Assembly (NCBI RefSeq): GCF_000003815.2
Contig: NC_049981.1
Span: 7,862,297 to 7,926,296, forward strand
Length of the DNA: 64,000 nt
From: Branchiostoma floridae
Taxonomy: Eukaryota; Chordata; Leptocardii; Amphioxiformes; Branchiostomatidae
Direction: 5' to 3'
Shown here: in pieces, positions 29,062-64,000 of the stretch
How positions within the stretch are numbered: position 1 is the stretch's first letter
Layout of the letters: every line of letters begins with the position of its first letter
The notes under the pieces: model-generated
The model's input: only the letters and a program-made list of their open reading frames with translations
The model's database searches: none
What the model was told of the DNA's origin: nothing
Program-made: the position numbers and the translations under genes

Positions 29062-32000
29062 CTAGGCCTTTATACACTTAGGTGCGAGCATGAGGGGGAA
29101 CTGGTAATACTTGCAGTCCTTGGGCGGGACGTTAGTGATGCACTCCCAGGAGATGTTCTCCTTCTTAAAGCCAGCCTCCTCAAGGTGCGAGATCTGGGTC
29201 TCCTGTAAGAACAAGATACAAGAAACATCTTTAATCTCTTTCTTTTGTCTTTAACATCAAATGTCAATCTATGAAAGTTAGGCATTCAGGAAGCCCATGC
29301 TATCTTGAGTTTGATATCCATAAATTCTCCATACAGTTTTCAGAAATTACACGGATTGAGTACATTGTATAGTCCGAAACCTGGTCAGGTGAACACCACT
29401 CTAAGCTCTTTCTTGTTGCCTAGCTGAAAACGTAATAATTCCACTCAAGTTCTGCAACTTGAACATTGAATAGTTACTAATTTTTGTACAAATACTTAAC
29501 ATGCACATGAAACCCTGGTATAAGAGAAAAACCAAAACCCCAAAATGTCTATTTTCTCCCCTTAATTTGAGTCAACCACAAATGATTCCCCCCTCACCTT
29601 GAACATGGTTTCTATGTTGCCTAGCTGAAAGCGTAATATTTCTACTCAAGTTCTGCAACTTTTATGTTGAATAGTTACTAACTTTTGTACAAATACTTTA
29701 CAAGCACATGAAACCCTGGTATAAGAGAAAAACCCTCACCTTGAACATAGTTTCGATGTTGTCATACTTCCCCTTGAGAAAATCACCCCAGGAGGTGAGG
29801 TTACAGTAGGACAGGACTCCGCCCGGCTTCAGTAACCGGCAGGCGTGCTTCCCGATGAAGTCAAACTGGTGGGTGTGCCACTCAGCCTCCGACAGGGGGT
29901 ATGTGTCATACAGAATACCTGTGGAAAATTCACAGAACCAACAAACCAATCAATCAATCTTTATTCTTCAACTTTGTAGCCTGGGTACCATCTGTATAGT
30001 AGTTCGCTCCTATGTTCGCTTCTGCTATCCATCTGGAGACCGGCACATTCAAACCATTTGGTGCTAATGTCAGTTAATGAGCGAATTAAGGAATGGATTC
30101 TAGAGCACTCCTTCAATAACAACAGGCCGGCACCCGCATGCGCAAGCGAATGGAGGGCTTTTCAGGTGTTGGAACACTGGTTCGAACGGGTGTTTGAACC
30201 CATTACCCATCCCATAATTCGCTCATGTGAAGGGACCAATCAGCGCCTGCATCCAAAATTTGGACGATTCCAGACATTAACCGTGATCCGGGATCCCAGA
30301 CAGAACATCAGAGAAGTAACACGTATAGTGTATAATGAATGTCAGAGCTAGAACTTAGTAGAAGTGACAGTATACAGTATATAATGAACGCCGGAGCGAA
30401 CTTTTTTCCGGATGGTACCCAGGCTATCAACTTTACAGATCTATGTCTGAATTATGTAAACATGACATTTGTAGAACAAAAGTCATGCAAACTGTCAAAC
30501 ATTTCAACATCCATACACATTTAAAACTGGGATAATGAGGTTTGAAAGTTTAGAATTTGTATGGACATAAATACGCATACATGTCATACGTACAAACATT
30601 CCTACAGGAAATACACATAAAAGCATTAAACAAAAATGCATTCATCCCTTCTTATCCTGTCTCAAAGCGTGCTCCTAAAACTCCTCTGCAGTTCTAAAAA
30701 AAAGCCCAAACTTAAGAAATTTCTTGTTGAGCACCAGAGCTATCGATCACCCAGAAAATATGACTATAGTATACATTTACATGCAGCTTTTAGGTAAAAA
30801 GGTATAAAAGCCACCACGAGGTCATTAATCAAAGTTATCCGCATGCCAAATATTTTTATTTACTTATTCATAAATAAATAATATTATGGGAAGATACACC
30901 AACAGCTTCTCGAGTTACGTTGTTCACACACAAACACATTACTGCTGTATTCAACTTACTTCCACAATATGATTAAATGAAGATGCGTATTGTTAAGATA
31001 AAACTGTCATTACTGTACTTTGTGTACTTACCATCAAAATGTCCATCAGGTAGAGTAGCAACAACATCCTGCCACATGCCCTTCAGTGGGACGATCTGGG
31101 AAGGTACAAAATGGAGAAACATGTCAACTACATGTAGGGAGGATGGTAGCCTTGGGGTTAGGGTTCTAGTTCTAGTTCTAGTCCATAATCTGCAAACCTC
31201 TGTCGAAAATGTGAGTGGAGAGGCTGTACTGTACTTTGCAGTGTCACACCTGCATCGTAGAGTTCTGTACTTATGTGAGTGGTTGGCACGGGTACTCGTG
31301 TGCTGATGCGAGGCGAGTAGGCGGAATGGCCACCTGACTGTGGCTGACTAATGATCTAAACCGTTACTAGGTAAGCAGTAGGTAAGCAGTAGGTTCGAAT
31401 CCCTAACAGGCCCTGATGTTTTGCCTTTGGGAAAGTGACATCATGCGAATTAGGTGAATACAGAATATCACGCAGATGGAGTACTTCATAATACCCAAAT
31501 GATATGGACCAAAGCAAGGCAGTAGACCGATTGTTGGACAGATACAAAAATGTACAATACCAATGTACAAGATTTGGAATACCAAAAAGTCATTAAATGT
31601 ACCAGAACTTTTCTTGGTTGCTACAAGCCAGATAACTAACCTTGTGTTTCTGTTCCTTGGCCCACTTTTCTAGTCTCTCGAACACGCCGTCATTACACTC
31701 GATGATCCAGTGTTCCTCGATGTCTTGTCGCTCGATTTCGCTCCCGGCAATGGCCATGCCGAAACCGATTTCGAGAACACGTCCACCTAAAAAACAACAA
31801 AAAACAGTGATATTCAACTTAGTAGTAAAGATCAACATCACTGCAATTTCTAGCAATATGTATGTCTACAAATACTGACATGTAAGATTGGTAACAAAAT
31901 AAGTACAGTTTTGATTTGGAAAATTGGAAAGTTGGCCTCTCTTAATCATTTTTTTCTCTATTGACCACTTACTAGTATAAGTAACCATTCGAGAAACTCT

Positions 32001-35000
32001 GATTTGTCAATTGATCACACTGAAACTAGGGTTCGGTACCGGTACAGAAAATTCAGGTCCAGGTCCGGACATGCACCTGGACCTGATTCAGTATGTGAAA
32101 ACTTATGAATGGATGATACTCAAAACAATGGTCCATTTTGCTACAAAGAAATCTGTTTTGTGGAGTATTCCCACTCCCACTGGCATTTTAAAATCCTACA
32201 AGGCTAACTGCCTATGTACGATTGACTGTACACCTTGGTAGAAATGAGTAGAGACTATACTCTACTTCACTCTTGTAATTTTCCTCAACTGGTAAACCCC
32301 CAAACATGTGAATTCCTGATCATATAATCTGTTCATTTTCCAATAGGTCCAACATCAGGTCAAATTTTCCAGGTCTGTTTTTTCTGGACTGGTCCAATAA
32401 GAAAAACTGGTTTTGTACGGGTACCTATCAGAAACCATTATTTCTGTTCTCATTCAAGGTCATGCTGACCAGCTGAATTTTCAATCGATCCTCTAACGCT
32501 AAAAAAAATCAATACGGTGTTCTAACCATCTCATTGCCGTGGCATTGTACAGTTGAGAGAGTCATTGATTTGGTAATACAGTACAGTCAAACCACCTCTG
32601 CATGAGGACCACCTGGCTAATGCCATTAATTACCTCCATAAAAAATGGAGGTATATTTTTTGGTGTGTGTGTGTGTGTGTCTTTCTGTCTGTCATAATTG
32701 TGGTCAGCATAACTTTAGAACCTCTGGATTGATTGTAATGATATTTGGTAAGTGGGTAAGTGTTGGGCAGACGAAGGTCAAGGGCAATTTTGGGCCCCCT
32801 GGTGTGTGACCTTGGTACTGCTTCAATTTTGTGTATCTTTTGACATGGACATGCTATGGTCTTGTTTTTTTGGTGGCAGATAGCTTGTGATGTAAGGAAG
32901 AAGTTATGTATGTTTGGGTCCCCTTGCAGCTTGTTTATGGTGGTAACAGATTCCTTAGACAATATTTCCCATGCACAAACACTAAGTAAGAAACCTGTCT
33001 ATAGTGATCACCTGTCCATTATATAGACCACATTTTCTTAGTCCGGGATAGTCCCGTAAATGGTCTTTTTGACCTGTTTTGACTGACTACATAATTAATG
33101 AGAGATCAGCTTTTAGCCAGCTAGGACACTCCTGTTAAGAATATGCAATATCTATATTCATTAGGCCCCCATTCCACTTGACGGCGCTCTCACCGCGCTC
33201 TCACGGCGATGGCAAACTTGCCCCATCGCCGTGAGAGCGCCGCGATGGCAGAAAAAGCTGCTCTAGTGGAATCTCTCCTGCGACGCCAGCGCGCTCTCAG
33301 CGCTACGGAAAACTCAAAGGACAGCAATTTTTATGGGCTGCCAAGAACTTTAAAGATTACTCAACGAATTTCAGAGATAAAGAACTAGATTTCTTACCTT
33401 TTGTGTATTTCATTGTATTTCAAGTCATACTTTTACGTCTTACGTAATTTTAAATTATAAAATCAAGGCTGTAAACAAATCCAATTTTGCTCACTGTAGA
33501 GTCGTTCAGCGTGAGTCTAAGATTATCTATACGCTTGACTTGCTGTTTTTTTTAAATTAAATTTGCCATGTAACTTGTTCAAAATGAATATCATTATCAT
33601 GCCAGGTTATTATCGTGAATTATAGAATAGTCAAACGAGTTGATCTATTGCAAATAAGTCTTCTATAATCTCAATCTACTGGCTAAGAACATGAAAACTA
33701 AAATGTTATTCTGTTGATATTTAAAAATCAGACATAGTAAACCTTTGTGTTCTTGATTATTCTATCTCAATTTAATTCATTGTACATTTTGAACATTTTT
33801 CCGAGTCCTTTCTCGTCAATTTATGTTATATGTATTCTGGAGTAATCCTGTGACTCGAAACGCTGAATAAAGCACCGTATGTGTAGTTGTCCAATTTGTT
33901 TTACCCATGATTTTAATTATAGGAAGTGATTCATGACACAAAAGTATGATTTGACAACAAAATTCATCTATACTTCCTCAAGAATAAAGACTGCATGAAC
34001 TATAGTTGAGAGCGCAGCGAGAGCGCGGTAAGATCGCCGTCCTAGTGGAATGGGGCCTATCATATACCATTGTTTAGCCCTATTGGCGCTCACCGCGCTC
34101 TCTTGGCGCTCTCATGACGCTCTCACGGCGATCATTGTTGCATCGCCATCCTCGGCGCTCTCACGGCGATGGTATGGCAGGGCTCCATACCATCGCCGTG
34201 GTGATGGCGCTCTCGCCGCGATGGCACTCCCGCCGCGCTCTCACGGCGCTCTCACGGCGCTCCCACGGCGACCTTGGCGATCCCACCGCGCTGGTCAAAT
34301 TTGCCATCGCCGTGAGAGCGCCGCGAGAGCGCCGTCCCAGTGGAATGGGGGTATAAGGACTTCATTTCACAGCTGAAATATTCTGTATAACAGCATATGG
34401 GGAGGTGCGATTGCATTTTCTCTTGAATTTCTGGAATAACTTGATACGTTTCTAAACTCCAATAAAATAATGAATCGTTTTGAACCCTGATATTTTCTAG
34501 TCTGGTTACCAAACCCCAGCCCGATCTCAAGTATCTATCGTACACGAAAGATATTTTTGAGGTTGGGGTATGGTATCCAGGCTAGATATTTTCTGGCAAG
34601 CCTGCTATCCTTGGGCAGAAATTTTCTTGCTGGCAAGGACAAAATTTCACCACATCCATCAACTGCTGGAATTGTATTTTTGTAAGCTACGTACAATACC
34701 AACGCAAATCAACAGCATGGGCTCCTAAACAATGAGAGGGACGGAAAAACATTTCAAGCTGGAGATAGCTCTGCTGCCAAGACTAATACAGTACCACCAT
34801 GCTTCAGTAAGACTAATAGGCTTTTATAGCCTTCTATAATCTGTCCTACATGCATTATAATCTAATCACCATAAATGTGACTGACCAAATGCAATTTTAC
34901 ACAGACCAATTTATCTTGCTTACCTTCACCTCTATATGATACAGGGGTACATCTGTATACATTACTGATCACCTAGGGCAAGCTAGATTAATATAGCCTT

Positions 35001-37373
35001 CAAATTCTCTCTTCAAGACCATGAATTTTCCATTATACAGTATGCCTAATTCAAGGTTATTTAGATATAGAAAGCCATCTGTTTTTATCCACGGAGGTCT
35101 ATATTCATCCTAAATTCTGTCAAAATCATGCAACATTATGTATCAAAATCTATTATTGTAAACATGAATTTCGTTGGACTTGTTTTGCGGTAGGCAATGA
35201 TAGGCTGTGCTGTGCTGGTTTCAAGCTGGGTAGGTCACTGTGCCCACCCCCACCCCCCCAAACACACAAAATAGCTCTGAATGTACTGTAAATGCAGAAA
35301 TGTTTGCAGTGGTTTTGGGTTGCATTTTTTGCAACAAACTCGACACTGCACACACATCTCCATTACAAAATGTGACTACAGTATATGGCGATACGCAAAC
35401 TCAAACAACTGCGAACACTCCATTTTCCCACTACCACGAAATCAAATCCCTGCATTAGTATGATAGTACATATATCAAGTATTACAGTAAATGCACCCAG
35501 AAGGCAGTTTCTCCCCTCCCCAACAGAGATGTGTTTGAATGACACTGGAGCAGTGGACAATGAAGGGATAATCACTTAATCTATTGTCTTTGTGCATAAT
35601 CTCTGCCACAGATAAGAAATGGCTTCAAATTTCACACCATTGTTCTGTTAATCTACTGGAATGGGTTGTTGCCACAGCAAACTTTCCTCTGCATACCTGT
35701 ACATTGATTTATGTTTATGGAGACTTAATTAGTAGTTGAACAATTCTGTGCCACAGAAACATAATGTAATAATATAACACTGGGGGTGTCACGAAATTGA
35801 AGAGGGGGCAATTGATGCAAAAAGTTAACAATTCTCTAAATAGAAGATTTACCTATGATGTAATTTCCCATCTGTTACCAGAATTTTTGGTTTGAAAAAG
35901 CCCTGATTTTTAGATCCCTTGGGAATAGATTAATTTGCATATTTTAAACATTTCACAAACTGCAAAAACTTTTTGAATCCCTTGGGAATCAGCTCAATTG
36001 CATATTGTCACACGCACATTTTTCATGCACAAATTTTTCATGCGCACAAAATCCCAACCCCTAGACATTGCTAGAATGAAATGTACAAACACTTCAGAAC
36101 TTCCTACAATGAAAATAACGTAATTATACATCCCCACAAACAAACATTAATTCATAGTAGCCATATAAAAAGAGCAGTCAGTCAGTCTTTTGGACACAGC
36201 TGTCTGAATAATCATCTGATGAACAGCTGTGTTTGGAAAAACCCCATGTGAGCCCCTGACATACCCATTTCACTGCATAGTGTAATTCAATGCAGACATG
36301 AGCAAACAGGTGCAAAGCTGCATTTTTGGTACATTCTGCACCTTTGAAGATTAAGAAAATAATGCAAAATTGTAAACTAATGCATAAAACATATGCACAC
36401 AAGCAATACTTGAAGTTGAACAGAAAATATATAAGAAAGCTTTCCTGATGAGAAAGTTGTCATTGGTAACTTTCACATTGAAAAAAAGTAACTTGCATCA
36501 ACTAATTTACCTAATATTATTTATGTATTTCTTCTGCTTTTGAAATTTCGAAGCTTTGATAATCAGTAATGTGTATTGAACCACAGAACCACAGCCCCCA
36601 TTGTTGTGCCCCCTCCCCCTTTATTAGGTGCCATCTGTAATCCAATCCCTAACCATGTATGCACATGGCCACGCATGGCGTGGATAGATCATTAATAAAT
36701 CCAGGTCTCGCTAATACTACATCTCCTCTACATTCTTTTGCTTCTTTGCATGATCGTTTTCTTCCTTTTATAATAAAATTCAGTAATATATTGATTATTA
36801 CACTTGCTCCAAATGCAATATGAACTTGAGGTTCAAGCAGTGTGAATTTTCAATTCTACATAATTCAAGTGAGTATGTTCTTCTTTAAAACACTTTTAGA
36901 TATTGAATTGGCCTTCCTAGACAAAAACACTTGAGGTTGGACATTTATGAATATCATAATTTACCATGCAGCAAAATTTATGCTAGGTGTGGGAGGGGGG
37001 CACACAGAAATTGTAGTTTGGGACGTCCCACAAGAATCAGTAACCCATCTCCGCCATCATTACTAAGAATATGGACGCATTTTTGAGAACATTTGGCAAA
37101 AATTAACCTCCTAGTACGTGTATGTATTATGAAGAGTATGTAAACGTATGGGGAAGGCGGTGAGAGATCATTTTTACGGCCTAAATTTTTACCTTTGCAG
37201 CTGGCGACCTGCGCCAGTTTGTGCATGTACGGAGTCTCCCATCTTTCCATCACGGGCTTCCCCATGATTTCCAGATGCTCGTCCGTCGCATCGTAGTCGG
37301 CTGAGGCGTCCGTCCAGGCCGGCTTGCAGTCCTCACCGCTTCCGAAGATGGGTTGTCCGGCTACGGCAGTCAT
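29062..37373 (-). CDS. GAMT: Guanidinoacetate N-methyltransferase, complete, 5 exons
   Basis: Catalyses S-adenosylmethionine + guanidinoacetate -> creatine + S-adenosylhomocysteine, the last step of creatine synthesis, in the cytosol. Exons in transcript order: 37193-37373, 31641-31786, 31032-31095, 29740-29918, 29062-29202. They total 711 bp and give 236 residues plus TAG, exactly the human length. Exon 1 carries the family signature [14 protein letters not shown] (residues 38-51). Exon 2 has the SAM-binding glycine motif [12 protein letters not shown] and the acidic strand [14 protein letters not shown]. Exon 4 has [11 protein letters not shown] with the substrate-contacting Asp135, WHTHQF and [17 protein letters not shown]. 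Exon 5 ends in [11 protein letters not shown]. No frame break or missing key residue was seen. The start ATG aligns with the vertebrate start. It is convergent with the EML gene and head to head with GATM. Its 5.4 kb first intron is repeat-rich. Confidence 0.97.
29977..30426. mobile_element. CTGGGTACCATC-family MITE, intact 450-bp copy
   Basis: The ends TAGCCTGGGTACCATC and GATGGTACCCAGGCTA are perfect inverted repeats with an inner GTTCGCTCC/GGAGCGAAC pair. It is the uninterrupted relative of 14040-16560. It lies in GAMT intron 3, 58 bp from exon 4. Confidence 0.85.
31310..31440 (+). repeat. tRNA-derived SINE-like fragment
   Basis: AGGTTCGAATCCCTAAC near 31391 is a strong B box. The following TGCCTTTGGGAAAGTGAC matches the style of the SINE tail near 49345. 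No matching acceptor stem. It lies in GAMT intron 2. Confidence 0.45.
32028..32426. mobile_element. GGTACC-ended MITE, copy 2 (reverse)
   Basis: Reverse-complement relative of 10756-11146, with shared blocks CAATGGTCCATTTTG, AGGTCCGGACATG and GGTCTGTTTTTTC. It lies in GAMT intron 1. Confidence 0.7.
32629..32937. repeat. ACCTCCAT/GGAGGTAT dispersed repeat, copy 1
   Basis: It starts with the palindromic TACCTCCATAAAAAATGGAGG followed by a (GT)n run. GGTCAGCATAACT, TGGGCCCCCTGGTGTGTGACC and GACATGGACATGCTATGG follow. A reverse copy at 55381-55727 aligns block by block. The 110-codon minus-strand frame over it includes the translated (GT)n and is not a gene. Confidence 0.7.
33166..34351. mobile_element. 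GGCGCTCTCACGGCGATGG-rich compound foldback element
   Basis: The termini CCCCCATTCCACTTGACGGC and GCCGTCCCAGTGGAATGGGGG are inverted. Another terminal copy (CCTAGTGGAATGGGGCCTA) at about 34036-34055 suggests a 0.9 kb unit with an attached second unit. Both ends carry arrays of GGCGCTCTCACGGCGATGGC in alternating orientation around an AT-rich core (33330-34000). It lies in GAMT intron 1. Open frames across it are motif translations, not genes. Confidence 0.75.
34497..34585. mobile_element. Short palindromic element (CTAGTCTGGTTACC ends)
   Basis: CTAGTCTGGTTACCAAACCCC on the left and GGGGTATGGTATCCAGGCTAG on the right are imperfect inverted repeats of a hairpin-like 89-bp element. Confidence 0.55.
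35284..35470. mobile_element. TACTGTAAATG-family MITE, copy 3, degraded
   Basis: It begins TACTGTAAATGCAGAAATG and contains the GCAGTGGTTTTGGG and CACGAAATCAAATCCC blocks of the family. The right terminus is eroded. It lies in GAMT intron 1. Confidence 0.6.
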
Positions 37374-37474
37374 TTTGGCACCAGGGAAAGCTGGAGAGAG
37401 CTAGGGACAAGCACACAAATTTCGTCTGCTGGACAAAAAGGAGGGAGGGACATTCGCGCGCTATTCTTATAGGT

Positions 37475-37514
37475 GGGCGGGCCTAACGCCAGCTACATAG
37501 ACGTATGTGATTGG
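37475..37514 (-). promoter_or_regulatory. GC box and inverted CCAAT motif of the GAMT promoter
   Basis: GGGCGGG at 37475-37481 and ATTGG (CCAAT on the minus strand) at 37510-37514 lie about 105-140 bases upstream of the GAMT ATG. Spacing and strand fit a CCAAT/GC-box promoter. Motif evidence only. Confidence 0.35.
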
Positions 37515-38239
37515 CCGCGGTGATGGTATCTGCGTCCTGATTAGTGGAGATGTTTTAAGGCGAAGACGTGGTCGTCTTGGTTTTGTCCATTTCACAAGTT
37601 TGAATTTTTTTTCCAAACGTTAATTGGGGAAATTGTGTAATTTGGAGTATTCGTTGTGGTTATATTTTACTCCCTGAACCACAGGAAGATCAAAGTCAGA
37701 GGATCAAAATATTGTATTTTAAAGTTTCCAATGGAAGTTACAATTGTCTATTGATACAATCCAGGATACCCCCCTTTTCTTGACCTAAAAAAAGACAAGA
37801 AAAAACAACAACAACAAGAACAGTAACAACAAGTGTCTAATACTAGGGAATGTAGTTATTGTGTTGTACCTGAATGTCCTGAAATGACGTAAGCTTTATC
37901 TTTTTTACAAACCTTCCAATTGTTTCTTTTCTTGTGGAGCTCTCCGCATTCCGTTACTGACGATAAGTCAATTAAAGAAGTGAGGTAAACCACAGTCAGT
38001 TCATACTTGCTTATCCCAGCAATCACCAACAGAATACCTGATCATGCCTAAAGCAACCGGCTTTGTTTCACCGAATCCCTATTCAACCACACGCGGTCAC
38101 AAGTTAATAAACCCCACAGCGCTTGGTGACGGAGGAATGCGTCATGCGACTTCGGTTTCAAAGTCTATAATAGCGAGAACAAAAGACCAAGGGACCTGAT
38201 AAACAACTGGGATGATCATGAAACCCTGTGGCTTTCTTT

Positions 38240-39045
38240 GGTAGGTTGTCTGGAATAACAGAAACGGTTCCAGATCGGACACGAGGGGTTAGGGCCGCAA
38301 TCATCATCATAGCGTTCCGTGGCCGCAATAATAAAATGAAAGGCTTGTTTCTTGCGCACGCTTTACCCATTATCTTTGTGATTTGCCGCTTACAAGTATG
38401 TTGCTGAATTTTGCCACTTTTTTATTTTGGCCTTTTGTATGGTAATTTATTCGGGCGCAGGGACATTTATGTGCATACCATACGGGGGGACCTCAACAAG
38501 TACAAATGCAATTACAAGTGCACATGTTTTCTTTTGCGCGTCAATTCATTCTTGTACTGAGTTACGGGAAAATTCACTTGCAAAACACTTAACTGTAACA
38601 ATAAATGAGAACAAAAATGTAAAATGTTTAAAAAAACAAGTAATCTCCAAGTAGACGACCAAGACTACTAGTATATCCGTAAGGTGCCCCCCCCCCCCCC
38701 GTATGGTATGCACATATTTATCCCTGCATCCAGTCTGTCACCACCCGAATAAATTACCATACAAAAGGCCAAAATGGGCAAAATTTAGCAACTTAAGTGG
38801 CAGATCACAAGTACAATGGGGGAATCTGGCGAAAAAAATGAAAACGAATTGACACCAATGCTACTGTTACAAAATGCATATCATAAGGAATCCGAACGTA
38901 AAAGATATGATATCCTATTTCATTTTAAGAAACCATTTGTCTGCACAAGACACAGGCCTTTAATTATTGTGGCCCTAACCCCTCGTGTCCGACGATTTCT
39001 CTGATCTGGGACCGTAAATTTTCCTGGCCGACACCGTGCCAACGT
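38240..39045. mobile_element. Foldback repeat between GAMT and GATM
   Basis: The arms are about 38246-38493 and 38688-39040. Near-identical blocks in opposite orientation include GGACACGAGGGGTTAGGGCC (38277; inverse near 38970), TTTTGGCCTTTTGTATGGTAA (38425; inverse near 38750), TAATTTATTCGGG and GCATACCATACGGGGGG. The 190-bp loop has no transposase. Arm 2 carries about 70 extra bases. The outer ends and target duplication are not clear. Confidence 0.75.
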
Positions 39046-39810
39046 GAACCGAAGAGCTGGTCAACCTATCGCAGACGTACGTGCTCGAGGGGCTGGCCTA
39101 GCCGGGTCTTGTCAGTTCAACCCAGTTGTCTGTTATTTTCTGGGTGTGTTGGATGATTTTTCCAAGCGCCTTTGGTGTTCGTGGCCAATGATGGCGTTCC
39201 CATGTGCCTTGGTGGCCATGACCTGGACTTTGGAATTGTTTGCCCATTTATTTCTAGGCAAAGGCGCGAAAAACTAATACACGTGCATTATAGCACGTAG
39301 GCCCAGTCTTAAAACACGTTACACGTTAGACTTGAAATCGATTTTGCTTGGCACTGGCGGCGTCTGGTATGGAATTTGTCCCTTATGGAATAATTCATGT
39401 CGTAGTAGCATCGCGCCGGGAGGGCGTTCAATAAATAGAACGGACAAATTTGCTTTTCCCTGATATGTAGACGAAAAAAATATCGTTATACAACTTGGAC
39501 CGCGTATTATACATATTTTCTCATCATAATCATGTAATAAAAACTAAGAATATGCATGTTGGTGATATAAAAAAAATATTCTTTTTAAAGCAAAGATAAT
39601 GCAAATTTTGTAACACAAAAAATTCAATCACACTTCCATCCCTAACCATATAACGTTTACCCTCTACGAAACCCTAACCCTTACCCTCCCTATGGATAAG
39701 GATAGACCCATATATTGTGTTGGTGGCTATAATAATACAGCTGAAGAAGTGAATTACCGTTTTGTTTGTTTTTTGGTAATATTATACCCTTCTTTCGAAA
39801 GCGGCAGCAA

Positions 39811-39856
39811 CCAATCAGAAGGCGAAGATTAGAGGCTTTCCCGCCAAAAGGGGCGG
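39811..39856 (+). promoter_or_regulatory. CCAAT, E2F-like and GC-box motifs of the GATM promoter
   Basis: CCAATCAG at 39811-39818 (NF-Y-type), TTTCCCGCCAAAA at 39837-39849 (a close match to the E2F consensus) and GGGGCGG at 39850-39856 lie 136-181 bases upstream of the GATM ATG. Function is inferred from motif and position only. Confidence 0.4.
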
Positions 39857-39991
39857 TATTGTCCGGAGGGAGGGAGGCCGGTGAAGGGAACGGCAGGGTC
39901 CATTGGTGTTCAGTTTCTGCCAAGGCTGAGGACTGACCCGCCGGCCGCTTATTCCCGACAAGATTTCACGGCTGAACTACCGACACTGACT

Positions 39992-42900
39992 ATGCTGCTC
40001 GTCAGGATCTTCCGGGGAGGATGCCGAGGCCGAGAGGCGGTGAAGGAGGTAAGGAATCACCGCTTTACACAGATGTAAAACGCCGTTACTCTGCGGTTTA
40101 ACGTTACACATATCGGTTTTATAACGTTACCATCACGGACCGAACCTTAAAACGTTCGGCATTTGTACCACCAATCAACCTTAAATCCTGTCAGGGTTTT
40201 CAATGTAAGCCAGTTAGATTTTCTCAGAATGTTTGATGATGATAATAAGAACTCGACCCCCACCATTTTCTGTAAACAAAAAGGTCGGTTTTGCTGAGTT
40301 TTGCGGAATACAGGACCGTGGGAGGACAGATGAGGATACGGCAGGCAAACCACATGGGCCGTCAACATGATCAATGATCCCACGGCCTTATGAGGCAATG
40401 AATATTCCTCGTACTCATAAATACTTCCTCTAACCGAGCAAAAATTACCAGCTAGATCCATTCAGAGCAAGTGACCCTACACAAAACACTTCCTGATCAC
40501 GGTGTGACTAGAAATATTAGCACGTTCTAAGACTTTGAGAAGTGGGTATTTTTTTCTCAAGGTTATTTTCGTCGTCTTGCTTTACTTGACTTCTTGAGTG
40601 CGTTGAACAAAGGTGATCATTAAGGGCGTGAAGCCTCTTAAGACTGTTTAAAAATGGAGGAACACGTTAGCAGAGGCACTTATTATGTAGGCCAGCAAGT
40701 TGACCGAAACATTTGCGGGTATTTTTTGTTTGCGGGGTTTCTTAATAGCCCTTTGATGCTCAGTGACCTCTGGTTCACCCTTTTCTTTTCCTTGTTTGCG
40801 CAAGTGGCACATTATGATTCTTCGCAAGACACAGTCAGCAATGTTAAAACTGAGGTTTAGATAGGGAAAATCCTTTGGTAATGTTTTGTTGGTTGCTAGG
40901 CTAGACGATAAATGGATCATGGTAAGAAAAAACAACAACAGAGAAACTGATCTCTGCCATTATATAACTAAAGGCACTCTTGTGTACATTTACAGTTTCT
41001 GTTCTAAAAATGGGGAGGGGGGCCATCCGTATCATGTTATGTTTTGACAAAATACGTTTTTCTTGAGGAGGGTTTCTGAGTTAATTCTTAGTGGTAGCTA
41101 CCCCTAAAGGCTAAAACATAGTCTTATGAACATTATTTATATACACTCACTCACTCACTCAGAATCTCCACATCACTAGTTTCCTCCTGAGTCCATTATA
41201 GACATATCTTCAGTTGAGTGGAATGAGAATTTTTTCTAAAAGTCATCCTCCCCACAGTTTAAAATGGAATAATCTATCTTAGACTTAAAATTGAGCTTAA
41301 AATTTGATCAAAATTAGGGATAGACCTTTGAGCATCTTGTGGTCAATGGACTGTGTCTGTTTAAACAACTTGAGTGATGTTTACAAAACTGGAGCTGTCC
41401 ACAAAATAACAAATCACGAGCAATAAACACAGATGTACCAGCACCCTCCCACACAGGGTTGACTATCGCCGGCAATGACTTACGATATCACCCCTGCCTT
41501 TTCTGGGATTTCTTTTGTTGTTGTTACTATACAGGGGAAGATATAGGGCTGTTGACAGACATTATGAGCTTATTTGTAGAACACCAATTTAACTTGTTTG
41601 TTCTCAGCTTGTAGAAATAAAAGTGAAAAATGAAAATTAACATGAAAACAGTATCTTGTGAAAAAGCTATTGCCTTTATGGCATGAACATTGCCAGACTC
41701 AATTTTCCCTCCCAGCCATGCATTTCCATCCTGATCAATTCTGATCTTTTGCTTACAAAATCCAAAGAACTAAGAAAATGATATGGTATGAGGTTAGCAA
41801 ATTAAGGGAAGCATCTTTCTTCTGCCAGTTGTATCACACTGTGTCATCTTTCTTCAGCCAGTTGTATCACTGTCATCTTTCTTCAGCCAGTTGTGTATGG
41901 AAAAGAAATCAACTGCACATGAAAAGGGGTAGCCAGCAGCTTATCAGCCTATCAAATAAAAGACATGAACCTTTTGCCATGTACTACCAAAACTACAAGG
42001 AAATGCCTTACATGTTTTACACATACTTGAACAAGATTATGAGATTCATATCTCTTTTAAGACATAAGTTCAAGTGCCTATATATGGCCTGTATGAATGT
42101 CCCTAGTGGAACACAACTTGTTTGGTGAATGTCACTTTTCAAGACATTTTCATTATTTTATTTATTATGTATGTAAGAGTAGCATTTTGGCTACAAAACT
42201 CACAAATCGTAATTGACAGATGTGATAAACACCATCTGGCATAGCACATGTTGGTGAGTTGGTGTGAGTTGTCACCCAGGCTGAGGAAACCTAACAGATG
42301 TTTTCATTTTTGTGTAACACCTTATAAATAAAGACCTATCACTTTGGTTTAAAGACTACTAGTCCTGGAATTAAGAACTACAGTGAAACCTGCCCAAGTG
42401 ACCATTCTCGATCCCAAAAATTTTACCAATTGACGTAAGCATTGAGACTAATGAGAGACCTTTCCAAGACGACCACCTGGCCAACACAACCACCAAAAAT
42501 TCAGGGACCTGTCGTAAATTGATGCTCTTCAAACTGACCGCCTGTTCAAAATGACAGTTTTAGTCCGTTCCCCTGTGTGGTCGTCTTGAGCAGGTTTTGG
42601 CCATGTACAAGAATATTGCTAAAAATTGTTGCTTGTCAATGTTTGCTCCTTTTTTCCTTCAATGTTGGCTTTAATTTAAGGTATACTAGGTAACATCAAA
42701 CTTGGTGTTCAATCCAAGACAGACTGTTGTGGAAGACAAACTTTACTTGCTGCACCTCATAGAGGAAAATCAATAATGAATCGTTCCATCCATACTAATA
42801 TTCTGCAACCCAAACCAGTTCTAACCATCCCAAACCTGCCTCGACCGGCAGTCAGACTTACTTGAAATCAATATCTGCTTAAAAATCAGTTTTGGTACAA

Positions 42901-54900: not shown

Positions 54901-57900
54901 CGGCCATGCTTGCTTTGTATTTGGGAGATTATCATGAGTTTGATCCGAGTTGGACCCAATGTGTTTTGGTTACAATGTCACCATTGCCAAAAACATTTTT
55001 ACAAAATTCCCAAATTGTATGAAAATTATGTATACAGTGTTTGTTTACAGAAGTGCATAGCTTGGAGATTTTCTTCCCAAAAATGCAGGAAATAGCATTA
55101 CAGATGGCTAGCATTTCCGTGGGAGCATGCCCCCAGAAATTCCCCCAAGATTCTCACGGTCACTACTTTGGCTTGCTACATGGGAATGTTACCTTGGAGC
55201 ACTCCTTTGGAATGCAGTTGATTACAGTCTGGATATAGCCAGGATAATTTTTTTTGTGAGCAGTTTCATCAACTTGCCTCCAAGGCTAGACTTTAGACTT
55301 GTAATAGTATGCCAGAGTTCAGATACCTCATACCTCCATAAAATATTCTGATTATGCAAATGACTTGCACATCCAGAGCAAGCTGCTAGGGAGCCCAAAC
55401 ATACATTACTTCTTCCTTACACCACAAGCCATTTTGCCACAAAAAAAATCAAGACTATAGCATGTCCAGGTCAAAAGATACAAAAAAATCGAGGTTCTGC
55501 AGCAGTACCAAGGTCACACACCAGGGGGCCCAAAATCAACCCTGACCCCTTTGTCTTTCCAACACCTACCCATATACCAAATATCATTACAATCCATACA
55601 GAGGTGCAAGAGTTATGCTGACCACAAATATCCAGAAACACAAAGACACACATACACACACATACACACACACACGCACACAGACACACCAAAAACTATA
55701 CCTCCATTTTTCATGGAGGTAATGAATAAGGATTGCAGTCACGTAGGGTTTGCTTTTCCAGGTTTACTATCACTACATGTTTCTGACATGAAAGTCCTGC
55801 AGGCATATTAAAAGCTACTATCTCGCTGAAGGCCTCTGCTGAATTTACAGGTGACTTGACAAGCCCTGCATGGTTNNNNNNNNNNNNNNNNNNNNNNNNN
55901 NNNNNNNNNNNNNNNNNNNNNNNNNNNNNNNNNNNNNNNNNNNNNNNNNNNNNNNNNNNNNNNNNNNNNNNNNNNNNNNNNNNNNNNNNNNNNNNNNNNN
56001 NNNNNNNNNNNNNNNNNNNNNNNNNNNNNNNNNNNNNNNNNNNNNNNNNNNNNNNNNNNNNNNNNNNNNNNNNNNNNNNNNNNNNNNNNNNNNNNNNNNN
56101 NNNNNNNNNNNNNNNNNNNNNNNNNNNNNNNNNNNNNNNNNNNNNNNNNNNNNNNNNNNNNNNNNNNNNNNNNNNNNNNNNNNNNNNNNNNNNNNNNNNN
56201 NNNNNNNNNNNNNNNNNNNNNNNNNNNNNNNNNNNNNNNNNNNNNNNNNNNNNNNNNNNNNNNNNNNNNNNNNNNNNNNNNNNNNNNNNNNNNNNNNNGC
56301 AGGCAAAGTGAATTTGTGGGGAGAATTGTGTTCCTGCGGAATGCAGATGGAATACATCTTAAAGTGGTTATAGAGCTAAAGGGAAATGTGGTTAAACTCT
56401 AGTACTTTAAGGCATGACTATTTGAAGTATTTCTTGTTCTTTTCTAAGCTGGTATTGGATACCTTAACTTATAGTTGGTATGTTCACCAGTTTATTACCT
56501 AAAGTTTATGTTTTTTGGGCATTTTCCAGAACATTGGTAGTTGTCTGCAAAATGAAGAAATGATTAGATTATGGGCCCCCAAGCAGCTCTCTACGGTAAT
56601 GCAGCAGTACTTCTGGTTTTGATATCTGGTATTCTAGACATGATATGGTCATAAGGTTTGATGGTAGATAGCTCTATTCATTTTGTACATCATGCAAGGG
56701 ACTTATGTTGACATGAACACTTATATGTCTTGCTCCAATGAAAGGTGACCTACACGCTGATTTCAGCTTTTCACAAGAAAAGTTCAAACAAGCAAACTTA
56801 CAAACACTTGCTGTTTTTCCGCAGCTATGGTCGCGGTCCGTTCACAGCGACCGGGTGCGCCACCAGAGTACCCAGGTTGCCATGCAGGACCTTGCCCAAG
56901 AAGACAGCGCCAAACCCGAAGATGCCAAACCCAACGAGAGCCCCAAGAAAAACCCTGTCTGCTCCTATAACGAGTGGGACCCACTAGAGGAGGTGATCGT
57001 AGGACGTGTGGAGGGAGCTTGTGTCCCGCCCTTCACTGTGGAGGTCAAGGTCAGAAGGCTTCTTTGTATTTCTCAGATTTTCTAATGTAGGTGTCATGTT
57101 TGTTTGTTTGTTTATTCTTTATTTAACCCAGGTAAAAGCATATCGCCTGACAGTATACATAAAGTTTAACAAAACCAAATTAACTTCAATAACATAATCA
57201 TACATCTATGAAACCAAATTACTTAAGTAGCATAAACATAAAGATTGTACAAAACCAGAATTAAAGTTAGATAACATTAAGTCATACTACCAAACGAGTG
57301 AATCAAAAGTTTAGCCTTAACTTGAGATAGCGCAGGAAATGTAGCAAAAAAAAAAGTGAAATTTGAAATCAGGATTGAATTTGTATATATATCAATGTTA
57401 AGTGCATAAAGGTTTTTGAAAATCACCAGCATTCTGGATGCTTTGATATGTTGTGGCAGTGAGTTCCACATAGATATAGGTAATAAAGATATTTGGCAAA
57501 TTACCTCAATGCTGGACGATTGTAGGCCAGAACATGTAAAACTTTCTTAAAGAAATTGAACTTGCGTGTTCTACTAGCTTGCAAATTTGATGATGGCATT
57601 TCAGTACCATGGAAAGTGTAGCAGGTTTCAGTGCTAGAAAGAAAAGTTGTCAGAAGGAGATTTTAGATAACCTTAAATTGATTAATGATTAAAAGTAACT
57701 AAATGATGGAAAATCTGTCGGCATTTGCCAAAGATTATTCAACAACATTGAGAGGTTTATTTAGGTTCTATCCATTTTGTTTATTTTAAGCACGTATCTC
57801 TACAATTAGCAAACTAAGGGGCTTTCAGTTTTTAGACATCCATTCTTTGTACTTCAAAACTACTTGGAACTTTTAACTTAGCACATATGTGTGACTTGTA

Positions 57901-60900
57901 TAAAGTTGAAAGCTACTTGCAGTTTCTGCTTCACAATTACCATGAGGAGTGATAGCATGGAGCTGACATTTCCGTTCGTCCTTGATGTAAAGTACAGTTC
58001 TCCCTCTGCTCCGTGTCTATATTTGTCGCCCTGATGCTGAGAGGAATACGGTATATCTTGACAAGGTCAGCCCTGCAGCGTGTGATTACCACGTCTCTGA
58101 CGTCAGCGTAGCAATCTCCCGTAATCCTGCGACTCCCCACACAACCTTCAGTAGATTCCTACATCATTTGTCAAACAGTGTATAAGAACTGAAGCAGGGC
58201 TCGAAATACTTTTTTCTGCATACCTGCACTGGTGAAGGTAACATTGAAAACTGCCTGCACCTGACTAATTTTACCTGCACCACTCAGAATTTAGGAAGTA
58301 TGGATCATACTAAAATTGTTAGGAACCATTGCTATTGTTTTCTTTTATAATTAATAGGTGGTAACAGTCAATGCAGCTAATAACAATCCATATACACCTA
58401 CATTATTGGACAGTTACGTATAAAACCCAGTACATGGACCAGTGCAGGTCAGGTGCAGGTAGACACCAGAAATCTCCAATTTTACCTGCACTAACCTGCA
58501 TATGCTGGTGGTATTTCGAGCCCTGCAATGTCTCTCGATACAACAAAGGTTTTTTTATAAACTAGATATATTCTTATTGGAAATGCTGAAGGGATACTTA
58601 CATATGACAAAAATAATAATTAGTGTATTTTTTTCAGACACTTACATGTCAAGAATAAGCTGTACATTATATATGTGCCCCAGTGCACAGGCCAAAATTT
58701 TACAGCAGTTCTGTTTGCACAAAAATGCATGTAAACCCAGCACGCATGTTGAGTCCTGAACGATATCAGAACTAAAGTCATCCATCCGAGCTGCTTGTTC
58801 CAGCTATCTCGTGACCACAGATGGGAAATGTAATACAAGGAAGGGCTGGTACAACTGGTGTTTGTTGAAGAGGGATTTTGTGAGATGGTGAGAATACTGA
58901 CTAATGAGGCTGTCAAGGACAAAGTTATAGTAATTCTAATTTCTTGGAAATATTGGGAAACTTGGTAAAAATTTGGGGACTGCTGTGGAAAAAAATTCTG
59001 AACTTTATGACATGAAACTGTCAAAAATATATTTTGATGAGCTAAAATGACAAATTTAACAACCAAATCAGCATGACCTCCCTAACAATAAGTGTGATGG
59101 AAAAAATGTAAAGCTGCCAAGCAAAATGTGGTTGTATTGCAAGTGTGCAAGTGGGTATTTTGAGCACTGAGCCTGTTCACGATCCTGACTTTCACCTGTT
59201 TCCAGGCAAACACATATGAGAAGAACTGGTCCTTTTTTGTGAAGAACGGAGGAAAGCCATTCCCCAACGAGCACATGAGGAAGGCTGTGGAAGAGGTGGA
59301 AGAGTTCTGCAACATTCTGAAGCACGAGGGCGTCAACGTTCGCCGGCCCGAACCCGTCAACTGGTCCGAGGTGTACAAAACCCCCTGGTTTGAATCCCCA
59401 GGTAAAGAATCTTGTTTGGTTTCTGTCATGGCATATGTATGAATCAAAAAAGTTTGTTCGCTTTACATAACCATAACACAACGCATGTATAGTTTATGAA
59501 CAAGCCATGTAAATCTTGTAAAAGTTTTTATCCGCTTGCACCGGTAGGTCCCTCAATTCTTTTCAAGAAATGTGGTGTGACCTTAAATGTGCTCAAGGTT
59601 TAATTCTCCTCTGACAAAAGGCTGTTGGTTTGACATCCATAATCAAAGCTAGGTACTTATTTTCACTTGTGTTGAGGGAGGAAATCATAGAGTGCCTTTT
59701 CTAAGGGCACAACATGTGGACCTACTGTACTAGGGATCCAAATGTTTGTCTAGGCAATAGCCTGAAGTTAAGGACTTTGACAACTTGAGACACCTTCTAG
59801 ATTTTGAAGCTTAATAATTGTGTACTTGAATATCTGGTACTGTTATCTTGGATTATAAAGCCAGATTGTAATCGTTTTCCCAGGCCTGTATGCGTCCATG
59901 CCGCGTGACATCCTATTGTGGTCGGTGATGAGATCATTGNNNNNNNNNNNNNNNNNNNNNNNNNNNNNNNNNNNNNNNNNNNNNNNNNNNNNNNNNNNNN
60001 NNNNNNNNNNNNNNNNNNNNNNNNNNNNNNNNNNNNNNNTTTCTTCGAGTACCGCGCCTACCGCTCCCTCATCAAGGAGTACTTCCAGGAGGGTGCCAAC
60101 TGGACTACTGCTCCCAAACCTACCATGGCTGATGAGCTGTATGACCAGGTATGCACTTAAGGTCTCATTGATGAGTTTCTTCTTCCCATAGACTTCTATG
60201 TTATAATTCGTGGTTTACACGGGCGCGTTCATAATGAAGCTACGTGAAAGTTTAGCAGATTTTTCATTGTATGTCGAGCACATTTACCCTATATGGTGGA
60301 AAAAAATTGCCAACGTCAAATAGACACCAGTTCTTTTTTTATAGCGATTACAAACTACGATTAGTCAATCCCCACAAAAGGCACTTTTTCGCTTCTAGTG
60401 TACAACCGCACCACTCAGAACCCAGGACTGTGTACCTCCGACCTAGCTCGCATCTGCAAAACTTTACCTGCTAATTTCTTCAGTTACAAACAAGCCTTTA
60501 CCAATCTAACTTTTGAGATCAGTCCCGCTGGCTAAAACGGAGTTTCTCACCGCTAAAAACACGCGTCCATGCAGCCGTTTATTTTTTAGCTCGGATCCTT
60601 TTAGGGTACCCACTCGGAGTAATACATCAATGAGACCCTATATTGAATCAAGTACAACATATTTCAAAAGACTCGATGCTACAAACAGATTTGTACATAT
60701 CTTTAGATGTTAGAACTCCCATAGTACAAAAATAGGCAAATACCGTATATTCTCGAATAAAGTACGCACTTTTTTAACTTTTCAAAATTGAAAAGGTGCT
60801 ACAAGTTGTTGCCAAAGTTGGGGTGCGTACTTTATTTGAGGTCTCTGCACAGAGAAATGGTAAAAAAAGCCTAAAATAAAGCAAGGTGGAGCTACACTTC

Positions 60901-62444
60901 TAGTAATGTTTCAAAACATGCACATTGTTGTTGTCTTGTAGTTGTCTAAACATGAAACAAAGAAATTGTCTAAACATGATTCACATAAGATTGGCATTTG
61001 CATACAATCCTTTTGAGTTAGTGACTTTGACTTGTACAACTGGTTTTTCCTGATTTCTTCTGCCAGTTCTCAGTGATTTTTATAATTTGCAGTAGGCAAT
61101 TCACAAGTTCATAGAGACAATGACAGTGTAAATGCAGGTTATTTCATGCAAAATAACCTGGGGAAAACATCATAAATTTGAATTTATCCAGTTAAAAGTC
61201 TGTTCAAAATTGGTGGAGAAGGGGTGCGTACTTTATTTGAGTTTTTCCATTTTACCTTTCAGTCCCAAAGATCTGTCTAAGACTTGTCCAAAATCAGGGG
61301 TGCGTATTTTAATTGGGGTGCGTGCTTTATTCGAGAATATACGGTATATCAAGGACTGCTTTGCTATTAGAAAGAATATCGAAACTAATGATTAGCCTAC
61401 TCCATTGTGATACTATATCAATGAATTATGTTAGCCCTAGCAACTAGGTTGTTAAGCTTTATCCTATATCTCTATTTTATACTTTGTGTAATAGTCGTTG
61501 CCATACATTGTACCATGTACAATTGTCGTAAAAAAAACTATAAAGTTCTTCTAAAAATTCTAAATGAACTAAATACGACCTCCGTGAGGAGGTACTGTTT
61601 TTGCTTTGTGTTTGTCTTTGTGTGTGTCAGTAGATATTTGAATATCATGTTAGTAGTTGGAAGTGAGATGGAGATAGGTGCTGCTATACATACCATATGA
61701 TGTGGGAAGGACTGTCACTTTTCTAGAACTATACTTATATATGACTTAATTCTTTAATTCAATCTACTACTGGACAAGTTTGTAAACTCACAGGAAAAGT
61801 TTCTTCAGTTTACAAATCCAGTATAGATTGGATTAAAAAATTAGTCATTAGTGAGAAGTCTTTCCCTCATGATTATTTGCATCCTCCTACGCACGGTCCC
61901 CAACGGCTAGCTGACTCAGCCTATGGGGCCCTGCTATGTCATGGCCTACCCACAGTTACCTTCAGTTCCTCGTCGCCCTGCTTATAAATATTAATGAGCT
62001 TACCGTTATATGGGCAGTCAGCCGTTGGGGATCGGGCGTAGGAGGATGGTGCTATGTAAGACGTAACATGATTGGCAGATAGCTTCCCAGCGGCCTTTGC
62101 GAGACAGCTTTCAACAACAAAAAGCCCAAGAAAAGCCTATTCTCTGATTGGTTGACAGCTGGTTTGTGGCGACAATCATAATAACCGCTGGTAGGCATCT
62201 AGATAGCAGGGCCCCATAGGCTAATGCCGTTGGGGACCGGGCGTTAGGAGGATGGACTATTTGCTGGTTTATGTGACTGAATAATTGTACTTCCGTGTGT
62301 GTACAGGAGTACCCTATGCGTTCTGTTGAGGATCGTCACAAGCTTGCGGCCGAGGGGAAGTTTGTCACCACAGAGTTTGAGCCCTGCTTTGACGCTGCTG
62401 ACTTCATGCGTGCAGGGCGAGACATCTTTGCCCAACGGAGCCAG
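39992..62444 (+). CDS. GATM: Glycine amidinotransferase (AGAT), 5' half, continues beyond the window
   Basis: Catalyses arginine + glycine -> ornithine + guanidinoacetate, the committed step of creatine synthesis, in mitochondria. Exons: 39992-40048 ([19 protein letters not shown], matching the vertebrate start; first in-frame ATG, A at -3), 56825-57049, 59206-59401, 59884-60148 (holding a 100-N gap) and 62307-62444. The Arg-rich leader lacks early acidic residues, fitting mitochondrial import. Family signatures are [13 protein letters not shown] and [11 protein letters not shown] (exon 2), ANTYEKNW (exon 3), [20 protein letters not shown] and [11 protein letters not shown] (exon 4), and [28 protein letters not shown] and [11 protein letters not shown] (exon 5). 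The Asp of PCFDAADF corresponds to catalytic Asp254 of human AGAT and the Asp of PRDIL to Asp170. The catalytic His and Cys are downstream. Exon 4 shows a one-base deficit before the gap. Confidence 0.95.
44606..44670. repeat. Perfect 31-bp palindrome with 3-bp spacer
   Basis: Arms 44606-44636 and 44640-44670 are exact reverse complements (core CTATTATCATTTTCCACTTC) around TTA. It lies 125 bp before a 964-N gap. It could be a real palindrome or a foldback artefact of sequencing or assembly. Confidence 0.85.
44795..45758. other. Assembly gap, 964 N
   Basis: Run of N in GATM intron 1. The apparent long open frames across it on both strands are artefacts. Confidence 1.
48963..49987. mobile_element. 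Foldback transposon with 9-bp target duplication (Mutator-like)
   Basis: The ends GGGTTTACGGAAAAGGCTGG and CCAGCCTTTTCCGTAAACCC are exact inverses. The arms extend about 150 bp and include tandem GGGCTGTCTACCT units (unequal number: four against five) and AAAGCCCATTGGGACAAAAG. The direct repeat TCCTCCTGC flanks it (48954-48962 and 49988-49996). The 9-bp duplication and long arms fit non-autonomous Mutator-like elements (inference). Inside are inverted SINE-like segments, one arm of the 19067 hairpin sequence and a reverse transcriptase fragment. It lies in GATM intron 1. Confidence 0.8.
49607..49735 (+). pseudogene. LINE reverse transcriptase fragment inside the foldback element
   Basis: One frame encodes [20 protein letters not shown] followed by [11 protein letters not shown]. 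This matches the widespread YGAExWTLT...RLDAFD motif near the reverse transcriptase C-terminus of LINEs. Only about 40 codons remain and the sequence then diverges, so it is a fossil fragment carried inside the 48963-49987 element. Confidence 0.6.
53461..53811. mobile_element. AGGGCTCGAAATAC-family MITE, copy 2
   Basis: CAGGGCTCAAAATAC and GTATTTTGAGCCCTG ends. Flanked by the direct repeat AATGG (53456-53460 and 53812-53816). It lies in GATM intron 1. Confidence 0.85.
55381..55727. repeat. ACCTCCAT/GGAGGTAT dispersed repeat, copy 2 (reverse)
   Basis: Ends in a (CACA)n run and the palindromic ACCTCCATTTTTCATGGAGGT. The upstream blocks GGTCACACACCAGGGGGCCCA, ATATCATTACAATCCA and TATGCTGACCACAA match 32629-32937 in reverse. 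Confidence 0.7.
55876..56298. other. Assembly gap, 423 N
   Basis: Run of N in GATM intron 1, about 0.5 kb before exon 2. Predicted frames across it are artefacts. Confidence 1.
57085..57478 (-). mobile_element. LINE 3' remnant (minus strand)
   Basis: On the minus strand near 57471 a frame begins [19 protein letters not shown], matching the WNSLP...FK C-terminal signature of CR1/Jockey-type reverse transcriptases. The downstream AT-rich tail runs to TTTATTTAACCCAGG at about 57117 and a (TTTG)n run. Upstream codons are interrupted. It lies in GATM intron 2, directly after exon 2. Confidence 0.5.
58195..58525. mobile_element. AGGGCTCGAAATAC-family MITE, copy 3
   Basis: The ends CAGGGCTCGAAATAC and GTATTTCGAGCCCTG are perfect inverses. 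No clear flanking duplication. It lies in GATM intron 2. Confidence 0.85.
59940..60039. other. Assembly gap, 100 N, inside a GATM coding exon
   Basis: Exactly 100 N, the usual placeholder for an unknown length. By comparison with vertebrate AGAT only about 25 bases (nine residues) should be missing if the exon is continuous. Confidence 0.95.
60158..60640. mobile_element. AAGGTCTCATTGATG-family element, copy 2 (reverse, longer)
   Basis: It starts TAAGGTCTCATTGATG nine bases past the GATM exon 4 border and ends CATCAATGAGACCCTA. It matches 28124-28413 in reverse, with about 200 extra bases near the right end. Confidence 0.75.
60741..61346. mobile_element. TACCGTATATTCTCG-ended MITE
   Basis: The ends TACCGTATATTCTCGAATAA and TTATTCGAGAATATACGGTA are near-perfect inverses. 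The motif GGGTGCGTACTTTATTTGAG recurs inside (about 60819 and 61221). A TA target site is possible (Tc1/mariner-like, inference). It lies in GATM intron 4. The 87-codon frame at 61132 has no homology. Confidence 0.8.
61880..62254. mobile_element. 375-bp MITE, copy 2 (reverse)
   Basis: The same length as 6841-7215 and its reverse complement with scattered differences. The flanks GATTATTTG and GACTATTTG form an 8-9 bp duplication with one change. It ends 52 bp before GATM exon 5. Confidence 0.9.
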
Positions 62445-62900: not shown

Positions 62901-64000
62901 CACATTGTACTCTAAAAGTCTCTTCTTATGTGTGCTAGATGTTTTTGTTATCTATAATTTCTTTTAATTTTCATTTTAATGATTCTTTTCATAAAACATT
63001 ATCAAGATGCAGAGAGGAAATAGCATGTATGAAGTAAGGGGAGGTGGCAGTTTAGAACATGCTGATTATAGTTACACCAAATTAGTTTATTTTGTTGATC
63101 ATCAGTTTTGAGAAGAATCATCATGTTCAACTGAATTGTAAAATCAACATGAAAACTGTATCTCAAGGTCAACTACATGTAGTCTTCACACCTTGTTACA
63201 TACAGTATCAGGGAATGAATACTGATTAGATTTTTTTATCTTGGCTGTTTGCTGAAGTATTGCTGGAAGTGTGAGTTTTTCAGCTTGTATGATGGCATTT
63301 CAGTACCATGGAAAGATTCATCATAAATCATCATTCATCATTCCAGATTGTTTTTCATGCTGGAAGTTTTGCTTAAAAAATGCCCAGAACTAAGAGAATA
63401 CATTGCCGTGGCCTCAGCCATTAAATCCAAAATAATACTAATTACATTGATTTATGCATGACCCACTGAGGATGCATACTTTAAACCAGGTTACCAAATT
63501 TATGGCAAAAGCGTGACTGCTTGCTGAATGTTTGCTACGAAATGTCCGCAAACCAAGAATATGAATTGCTATGGCCTTTGCCATTAACTCCAAAATAATT
63601 ATACTTATTACAAATTGTTCTATATGATTCACTGACAGCCCATGCTCTTATGACAGCTAGACATTCAGTTCAAATTTATCTAGATTACAAAGCTTTTGAC
63701 CTACTGACAATGTATAATTTAGTCAGGTTACCAACTTTATGGGAATCATGTGGCTGCGCCACCACCTTGAGCCAAAAGTTACCGAAGGTTTGGTAAGAAG
63801 CAATTGTAAAAATGTATAACAAAATAACCTGACCCACTGACAATAATTTATTTAATGCAAATTTTACCCCAGGTTGCCAACTTGATAAAAATTGAGTAGA
63901 CTACCTTGAGCCAAGAGGATACAACATTTCTTAGCAAAAGTTCACAGAACCCCAAAAAATATACTGGTGTCCAAATGAACTGCCCTAATGACCAATTGTT
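62901..64000 (+). other. GATM intronic sequence, nothing recognised
   Basis: AT-rich sequence with no exon matching the next part of AGAT and no clear repeat border. A weak duplicated block (CATTAAxTCCAAAATAATxxTA near 63419 and 63583) is the only internal similarity noticed. Confidence 0.5.

Follow-up and report, generated by a model that had tools for sequence, protein, structure and literature searches.

Two creatine-biosynthesis genes, GAMT and GATM, are divergent neighbours on one chromosome of the lancelet Branchiostoma floridae

The GAMT and GATM genes and their surroundings

The window analysed here is a stretch of 64,000 nt of the Branchiostoma floridae genome (GCF_000003815.2, contig NC_049981.1, referred to as C3, positions 7862297-7926296 of the forward strand); all coordinates on C3 are counted from its first base, including those that fall outside it. 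The genome-wide searches covered 513,431,437 bases in 431 contigs, of which C3 accounts for 34,247,348 bases. Creatine is made by mitochondrial AGAT and then cytosolic GAMT acting in sequence, and the genes for both enzymes lie next to each other here:

29062..29202, minus strand, GAMT exon 5 with the stop codon (splice sites, human GAMT match)
29740..29918, minus strand, GAMT exon 4, containing LYDTYP (splice sites, human GAMT match)
31032..31095, minus strand, GAMT exon 3 (splice sites, human GAMT match)
31641..31786, minus strand, GAMT exon 2, containing GFGMAIA (splice sites, human GAMT match)
37193..37373, minus strand, GAMT exon 1, start codon at 37373 (splice sites, human GAMT match)
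37374..39991, no strand, interval between GAMT and GATM, 2,618 bp, no N, no gene found
38275..38992, no strand, imperfect inverted repeat of 718 bp, 30-bp ends 93% complementary
39992..40048, plus strand, GATM exon 1 (57 bases), start codon at 39992, donor GTAAGG
56825..57049, plus strand, GATM exon 2
59206..59401, plus strand, GATM exon 3
59884..60148, plus strand, GATM exon 4, interrupted by 100 N (59940-60039) and carrying a frame change of one base
62307..62444, plus strand, GATM exon 5
64037-64268, 65388-65521 and 66441-66533, plus strand, GATM exons 6, 7 and 8, past the window end

The earlier note had described a complete GAMT on the minus strand and the 5′ part of GATM on the plus strand, and both descriptions hold. 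The five GAMT exons run from 37373 to 29062 with GT/AG at 4/4 introns and encode 236 aa. This protein (GAMT-A) matches residues 1-234 of the solved human GAMT structure 3orh over their full length (E 1e-111, with one extra residue in the query), with 155/234 aligned residues identical, and is thereby identified as a GAMT. We take GFGMAIA in exon 2 to be the SAM-binding motif and the Asp of LYDTYP in exon 4 to be, by its position, the Asp134 of the literature. GAMT-A retains this Asp134 as well as the Glu corresponding to human residue 46 (rat Glu45), which presumably binds the substrate guanidinoacetate. Passages of two papers describe Asp134 as catalytic, the only one of the roles of Asp134 and Glu46 to be found in them.

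GATM has eight coding exons, five of which lie inside the window, with GT/AG at 7/7 introns and a stop codon that ends at 66533. Its translation aligns with residues 1-422 of human AGAT (E 8.7e-202, with part of exon 4 omitted); the alignment contains a 19-residue segment and GFHCWTCDVRRRG, and part of exon 4 is lost in the gap. The full-length match, together with the residues Asp254, His303 and Cys407 that we assume to be catalytic in AGAT, identifies the gene. The claim of a pair depends on the short exon 1, whose placement can be regarded as safe from the alignment: residues 1-17 of human AGAT reach a score of 54 at 39992, with 12/17 identical, and the next-best score over the six frames of 164 kb is 29. 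The frame change in exon 4 concerns one base about 20 bases before the 100-N gap; it is most likely a sequence or assembly error at the gap edge, the alternative being a true lesion of this haplotype. Ahead of the true exons 6 and 8 there are incomplete, degenerate copies of their beginnings, at 63721-63777, 63856-63925 and about 66087-66440; they may stem from a minisatellite-like expansion across exon borders or be remnants of alternative exons.

The start codons of the two genes (ATG at 37373 on the minus strand and at 39992 on the plus strand) are 2618 bp apart, as had been claimed. The only runs of N in the window are at 44795-45758, 55876-56298 and 59940-60039, with none between the two starts, and the next run to the left of the window ends at -17890; a single gap-free stretch from -17889 to 44794 thus contains the entire GAMT gene together with GATM exon 1. 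Genome-wide, 5/5 GATM matches fall on C3, and no second GATM locus was found, among the best candidates scored for a query of the first 267 residues as first read (a search with the PF02274 profile found no GATM exon in the genome, which is a limit of this profile). A misjoin between 37.4 and 40.0 kb, against which the earlier note had cautioned, is contradicted by the N-free first 44,794 bases of the window, the interval included, and by the lack of any other GATM match in that search. The divergent GAMT/GATM pair on one lancelet chromosome is therefore real.

Further features flank the pair. Exons of an EML-type microtubule-associated protein occupy about 9550-26485 on the plus strand, convergent with GAMT. 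As a loosely joined query they score above the Pfam cut-offs of both EML beta-propellers; two single exons best fit the second EML propeller, yet fall below its cut-off. A 27-bp tandem repeat of ~17 copies (26472-26931) is located where the last recognised EML exon ends. Downstream of GATM, past the window end, TPR_12-type repeats are found at about 73617-74501.

Composition of the GAMT-GATM interval

No gene was found between GAMT and GATM, in agreement with the earlier note: 15/15 ORFs of at least 60 aa wholly inside the interval are without a Pfam match at E 0.001, one of them reaching E 0.02, below the family's own cut-off. Neither ARAGORN with the bacterial code nor Rfam at its gathering scores found anything in the window. 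A bacterial promoter scan, which is uninformative for an animal promoter, gave three sites compared with 5.6 in shuffles.

The interval is CpG-rich along most of its length, beyond just both gene starts. The CpG observed/expected ratio is at least 0.85 in 6/10 300-b blocks from 37201 to 40200, compared with 20/195 of the other N-free blocks of the window; the ratio of the window as a whole is 0.50. In a second blocking, also of 300 b, the two blocks starting at 37100 have ratios of 0.98 and 1.04, the block at 37700 has 0.45, the four that cover 38000-39199 have 0.70-1.02 and the four from 39200 have 0.85-1.21. Among the 20 CpG-rich blocks away from the pair, some form runs, at 13501-16500 and 33001-34500.

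The 718-bp inverted repeat, which leaves 1.9 kb of the interval when subtracted, has a perfect inner arm pair of 32 bp and looks like a fold-back or MITE-type insertion. A search for this element elsewhere, which skips common words, returned self matches only; its status as a dispersed repeat is accordingly unsupported.

A second GAMT gene beside a transcarbamylase on C18

The earlier note spoke of the two creatine-biosynthesis genes; their identities as GAMT and GATM stand, but the count was incomplete, as the genome holds a second GAMT on another contig, C18. Half of the ten GAMT matches in the genome belong to the gene in the window and the other five to C18:5272941-5278649. This second gene (GAMT-B) is intact and has the same exon lengths as GAMT-A (181, 146, 64, 179 and 141) and 236 residues, 195 of which are identical between the two proteins. 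It shares 154/234 residues with human GAMT, so that both copies are ~66% identical to it. At the 41 sites where the copies differ, the human residue is found in GAMT-A 12 times, in GAMT-B 11 times and in neither 18 times; 38/77 fourfold sites differ, a distance of about 0.8. Judging by this balance of shared residues and by the fourfold-site distance, the duplication is assigned to the lancelet lineage, later than its divergence from vertebrates. GAMT-B keeps Asp134, and Gln replaces Glu at human position 46 (confirmed at the codon). By its residues, the C3 gene is thus the copy predicted to keep substrate binding, and the C18 copy the one that has drifted.

GAMT-B is preceded on its own strand by a transcarbamylase gene (E 4.4e-89 against human OTC), which spans 5264065-5270096, its final matched exon ending 2.8 kb before the GAMT-B start codon. 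A candidate last exon, read by eye, ends with AVILSLLKDHVCTTPKPDY at ~5270925, which brings the spacing to 2.0 kb. The genome contains 13 OTC matches, seven of which belong to this gene and six to a gene on the unplaced contig C373. The latter retains SxRT, HPxQ, GDGNN, DxxxSMG and HCLP, whereas the C18 gene retains SxRT, HPxQ, GDGNN and HCLP and is without DxxxSMG, the ornithine-binding motif of OTC according to the text seen of PMC8517447. The loss of this motif together with the Gln at position 46 of GAMT-B suggests that the C18 pair may have changed substrates. One could go further and propose that lancelets have two compact guanidino-metabolism loci, C3 being a chordate-wide creatine relic and C18 a second pathway that N-methylates a carbamoylated amine; in such a scheme the Gln of GAMT-B would suit a neutral ureido group, as the Glu would a cationic guanidinium. 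We regard this as highly improbable. C18 was also rejected as a wider copy of the C3 locus, the interval having no similarity to the 60 kb around GAMT-B, as was an OTC neighbour of the C18 type at C3, with no OTC match across the 164 kb around the pair.

Chromosomal position of vertebrate-neighbour markers

Seven marker families were searched in the genome, of which five were informative (NDUFS7, DuoxA, TLE, GALK2 and DOT1). We take human NDUFS7 to adjoin GAMT, human DUOXA and GALK2 to lie at 15q21.1 near GATM, itself presumably at 15q21.1, human TLE genes to lie at 15q23 and 19p13.3, and human DOT1L to lie on 19p13.3. Human GAMT is placed at 19p13.3 in a passage of PMC12842229. In the lancelet, the homologues of NDUFS7 (1/1 match), DuoxA (11/11) and TLE (5/5) are all on C2. 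The galactokinase family has two of its three matches on C2, where the gene best fits N-acetylgalactosamine kinase (GALK2), and the third on C13, where it best fits galactokinase (GALK1-like). Of two predictions written down together with the search, that of GALK2 on C2 held; DOT1, against the other, is on C15 (3/3 matches). The two remaining families are uninformative. SLC28 has 20 matches (12 on C5, five on C3 and three on C8), and SPP/SPPL has 12 (five on C3, four on C11 and three on C2), the five on C3 stacking on one profile segment; compared with human sequences, the C2 gene of this family reads as HM13-like and the C11 gene as SPPL3-like, for which reasons the family was dropped as a marker.

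Four of the five informative markers are therefore on C2 and not on C3, which suggests a change of chromosome of the GAMT/GATM pair with respect to vertebrates. Both vertebrate loci may trace to the C2 linkage group, with the lancelet pair on C3.

Separate promoters, shared control or chance

The two genes are divergent and adjacent with their start codons 2,618 bp apart. Passages of PMC7817982 state that head-to-head pairs are usually defined by TSSs within 1 kb. A classic bidirectional promoter would require long 5′ UTRs to fit the 2.6-kb spacing, and a single compact bidirectional promoter is probably not what drives the pair. The reading that we prefer, tentatively and at a little short of even likelihood, is that of a divergent pair with two promoters in a common CpG-rich upstream region. 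We infer that GAMT and GATM would each have their own promoter, one per end of the 2.6-kb region, that the pair would probably be transcribed from one open-chromatin domain with enhancers partly common to both, and that the outcome would be partial co-expression. The gene structures and their distance, the gap-free stretch, the 5/5 GATM matches on C3 and the CpG enrichment of the interval argue for this reading. So do the bidirectional arrangement being common in B. lanceolatum, as reported in excerpts of PMC6292497, and a C. elegans enhancer able to control two head-to-head genes (PMC12239621, seen in part). Against it count the start-codon spacing, beyond the 1-kb limit for TSSs (PMC7817982, as excerpted), and the intervening 718-bp repeat, and the CpG argument is weakened by the CpG-rich runs elsewhere and the poor block (0.45) at 37700. 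Moreover, mammalian AGAT is under its own creatine feedback (in the passages of PMC10725494), and in the periphery the kidneys produce GAA while creatine comes mainly from the liver (in those of PMC12842229); joint control is thus dispensable, and separate control also works.

It is quite possible, although we would not rate it as probable, that the two genes are neighbours by chance, a scrambled gene order yielding occasional adjacent enzyme pairs whose members are regulated apart. In B. lanceolatum, 3,950/15,884 neighbouring genes (25%) are in bidirectional promoters according to the excerpts of PMC6292497, so the orientation itself is ordinary; the notable feature of the pair is the shared pathway, not the orientation. 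From a rough estimate with the 26,501 genes given in the same excerpts, any two named genes are adjacent with a probability of 7.5e-5 and divergent with one of 1.9e-5. Over 1,000 consecutive-step pairs 0.08 adjacent pairs would be expected, and 0.23 over 3,000 (both numbers of pairs being assumed). The passages of PMC7269912 add that gene order inside linkage groups is largely scrambled. On the other hand, the prior for this one pathway is small, and the positions of four of the five informative markers suggest a common linkage group for GAMT and GATM in the vertebrate stem as well.

The same markers bear on an ancestral creatine locus, which we consider unlikely: the two genes would have been linked in the chordate ancestor, moved chromosome once and jointly, on either the lancelet or the vertebrate side, and parted in vertebrates by differential copy loss following the genome duplications. 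The presence of the NDUFS7, DuoxA, TLE and GALK2-like homologues on C2 is consistent with it, and a single relocation of both genes together is more parsimonious than an independent one for each. Excerpts of PMC7269912 give BFL2 a CLGC + CLGJ ancestry and derive chicken chromosome 28 from CLGC, which also fits, although C2 and C3 are equated with BFL2 and BFL3 from numbering alone. Against it stand DOT1 on C15 and the second GAMT, which demonstrates that GAMT is mobile.

Finally, an assembly artefact in which a scaffold join brings two unlinked genes together is barely credible: GATM exons 2 to 8 do lie past two N gaps in intron 1 and are linked to exon 1 by scaffolding, but GAMT in full and GATM exon 1 lie in one uninterrupted stretch, the later exons are in order and on the correct strand, no GATM match elsewhere in the genome came up in the search described above, and the chromosome-scale B. 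floridae assembly described in passages of PMC7269912, if it is the same one, was built from chromatin contacts with a linkage map as a check.

Comparison with known systems and significance

A close parallel to the divergent pair is found in the bidirectional-promoter pairs of B. lanceolatum (PMC6292497, in part), which are likewise divergent neighbours; most of the 372 putatively ancestral ones are missing from vertebrates, with 54.5% lost in stem vertebrates. These are spaced by 0-2 nucleosomes, whereas the GAMT and GATM start codons are farther apart, and GAMT and GATM share one two-step pathway. As adjacent genes of one pathway they also resemble metabolic clusters such as the fungal GAL and allantoin clusters as far as the texts seen describe them; in comparison with these, the lancelet pair has only two genes, is found in an animal, has only a presumed co-regulation and includes one enzyme with an unlinked second copy. 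The vertebrate GATM and GAMT genes are orthologous, with full-length alignments to the human proteins, but lie on separate chromosomes. Prokaryote clusters were discarded as a parallel: two peptide patterns retrieved 44 stretches from a prokaryote collection, of which one carries a distant GAMT relative (33%, Woesearchaeota), and the 11,161 bases of that stretch gave no match to AGAT.

According to the parts of PMC2481426 consulted, all of the studied deuterostomes have GAMT, as do cnidarians, one acoel and one chaetognath, but none of the surveyed protostomes does, and B. belcheri sequences serve as an outgroup in those of PMC6443941. No description of GATM-GAMT adjacency was found among the open-access matches listed, mostly by their titles and abstract starts, and the pair is apparently undescribed so far.

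GAMT-B beside an altered transcarbamylase is an independent lead, to a possible new guanidino/ureido chemistry in a chordate. As for the C3 pair, should co-regulation or an ancestral origin be borne out, an animal would here have retained an entire two-step pathway in adjacent genes, which is rare, and the question why vertebrates came to place creatine synthesis on different chromosomes, and for the most part in different organs (kidney and liver), could readily be tested on it.
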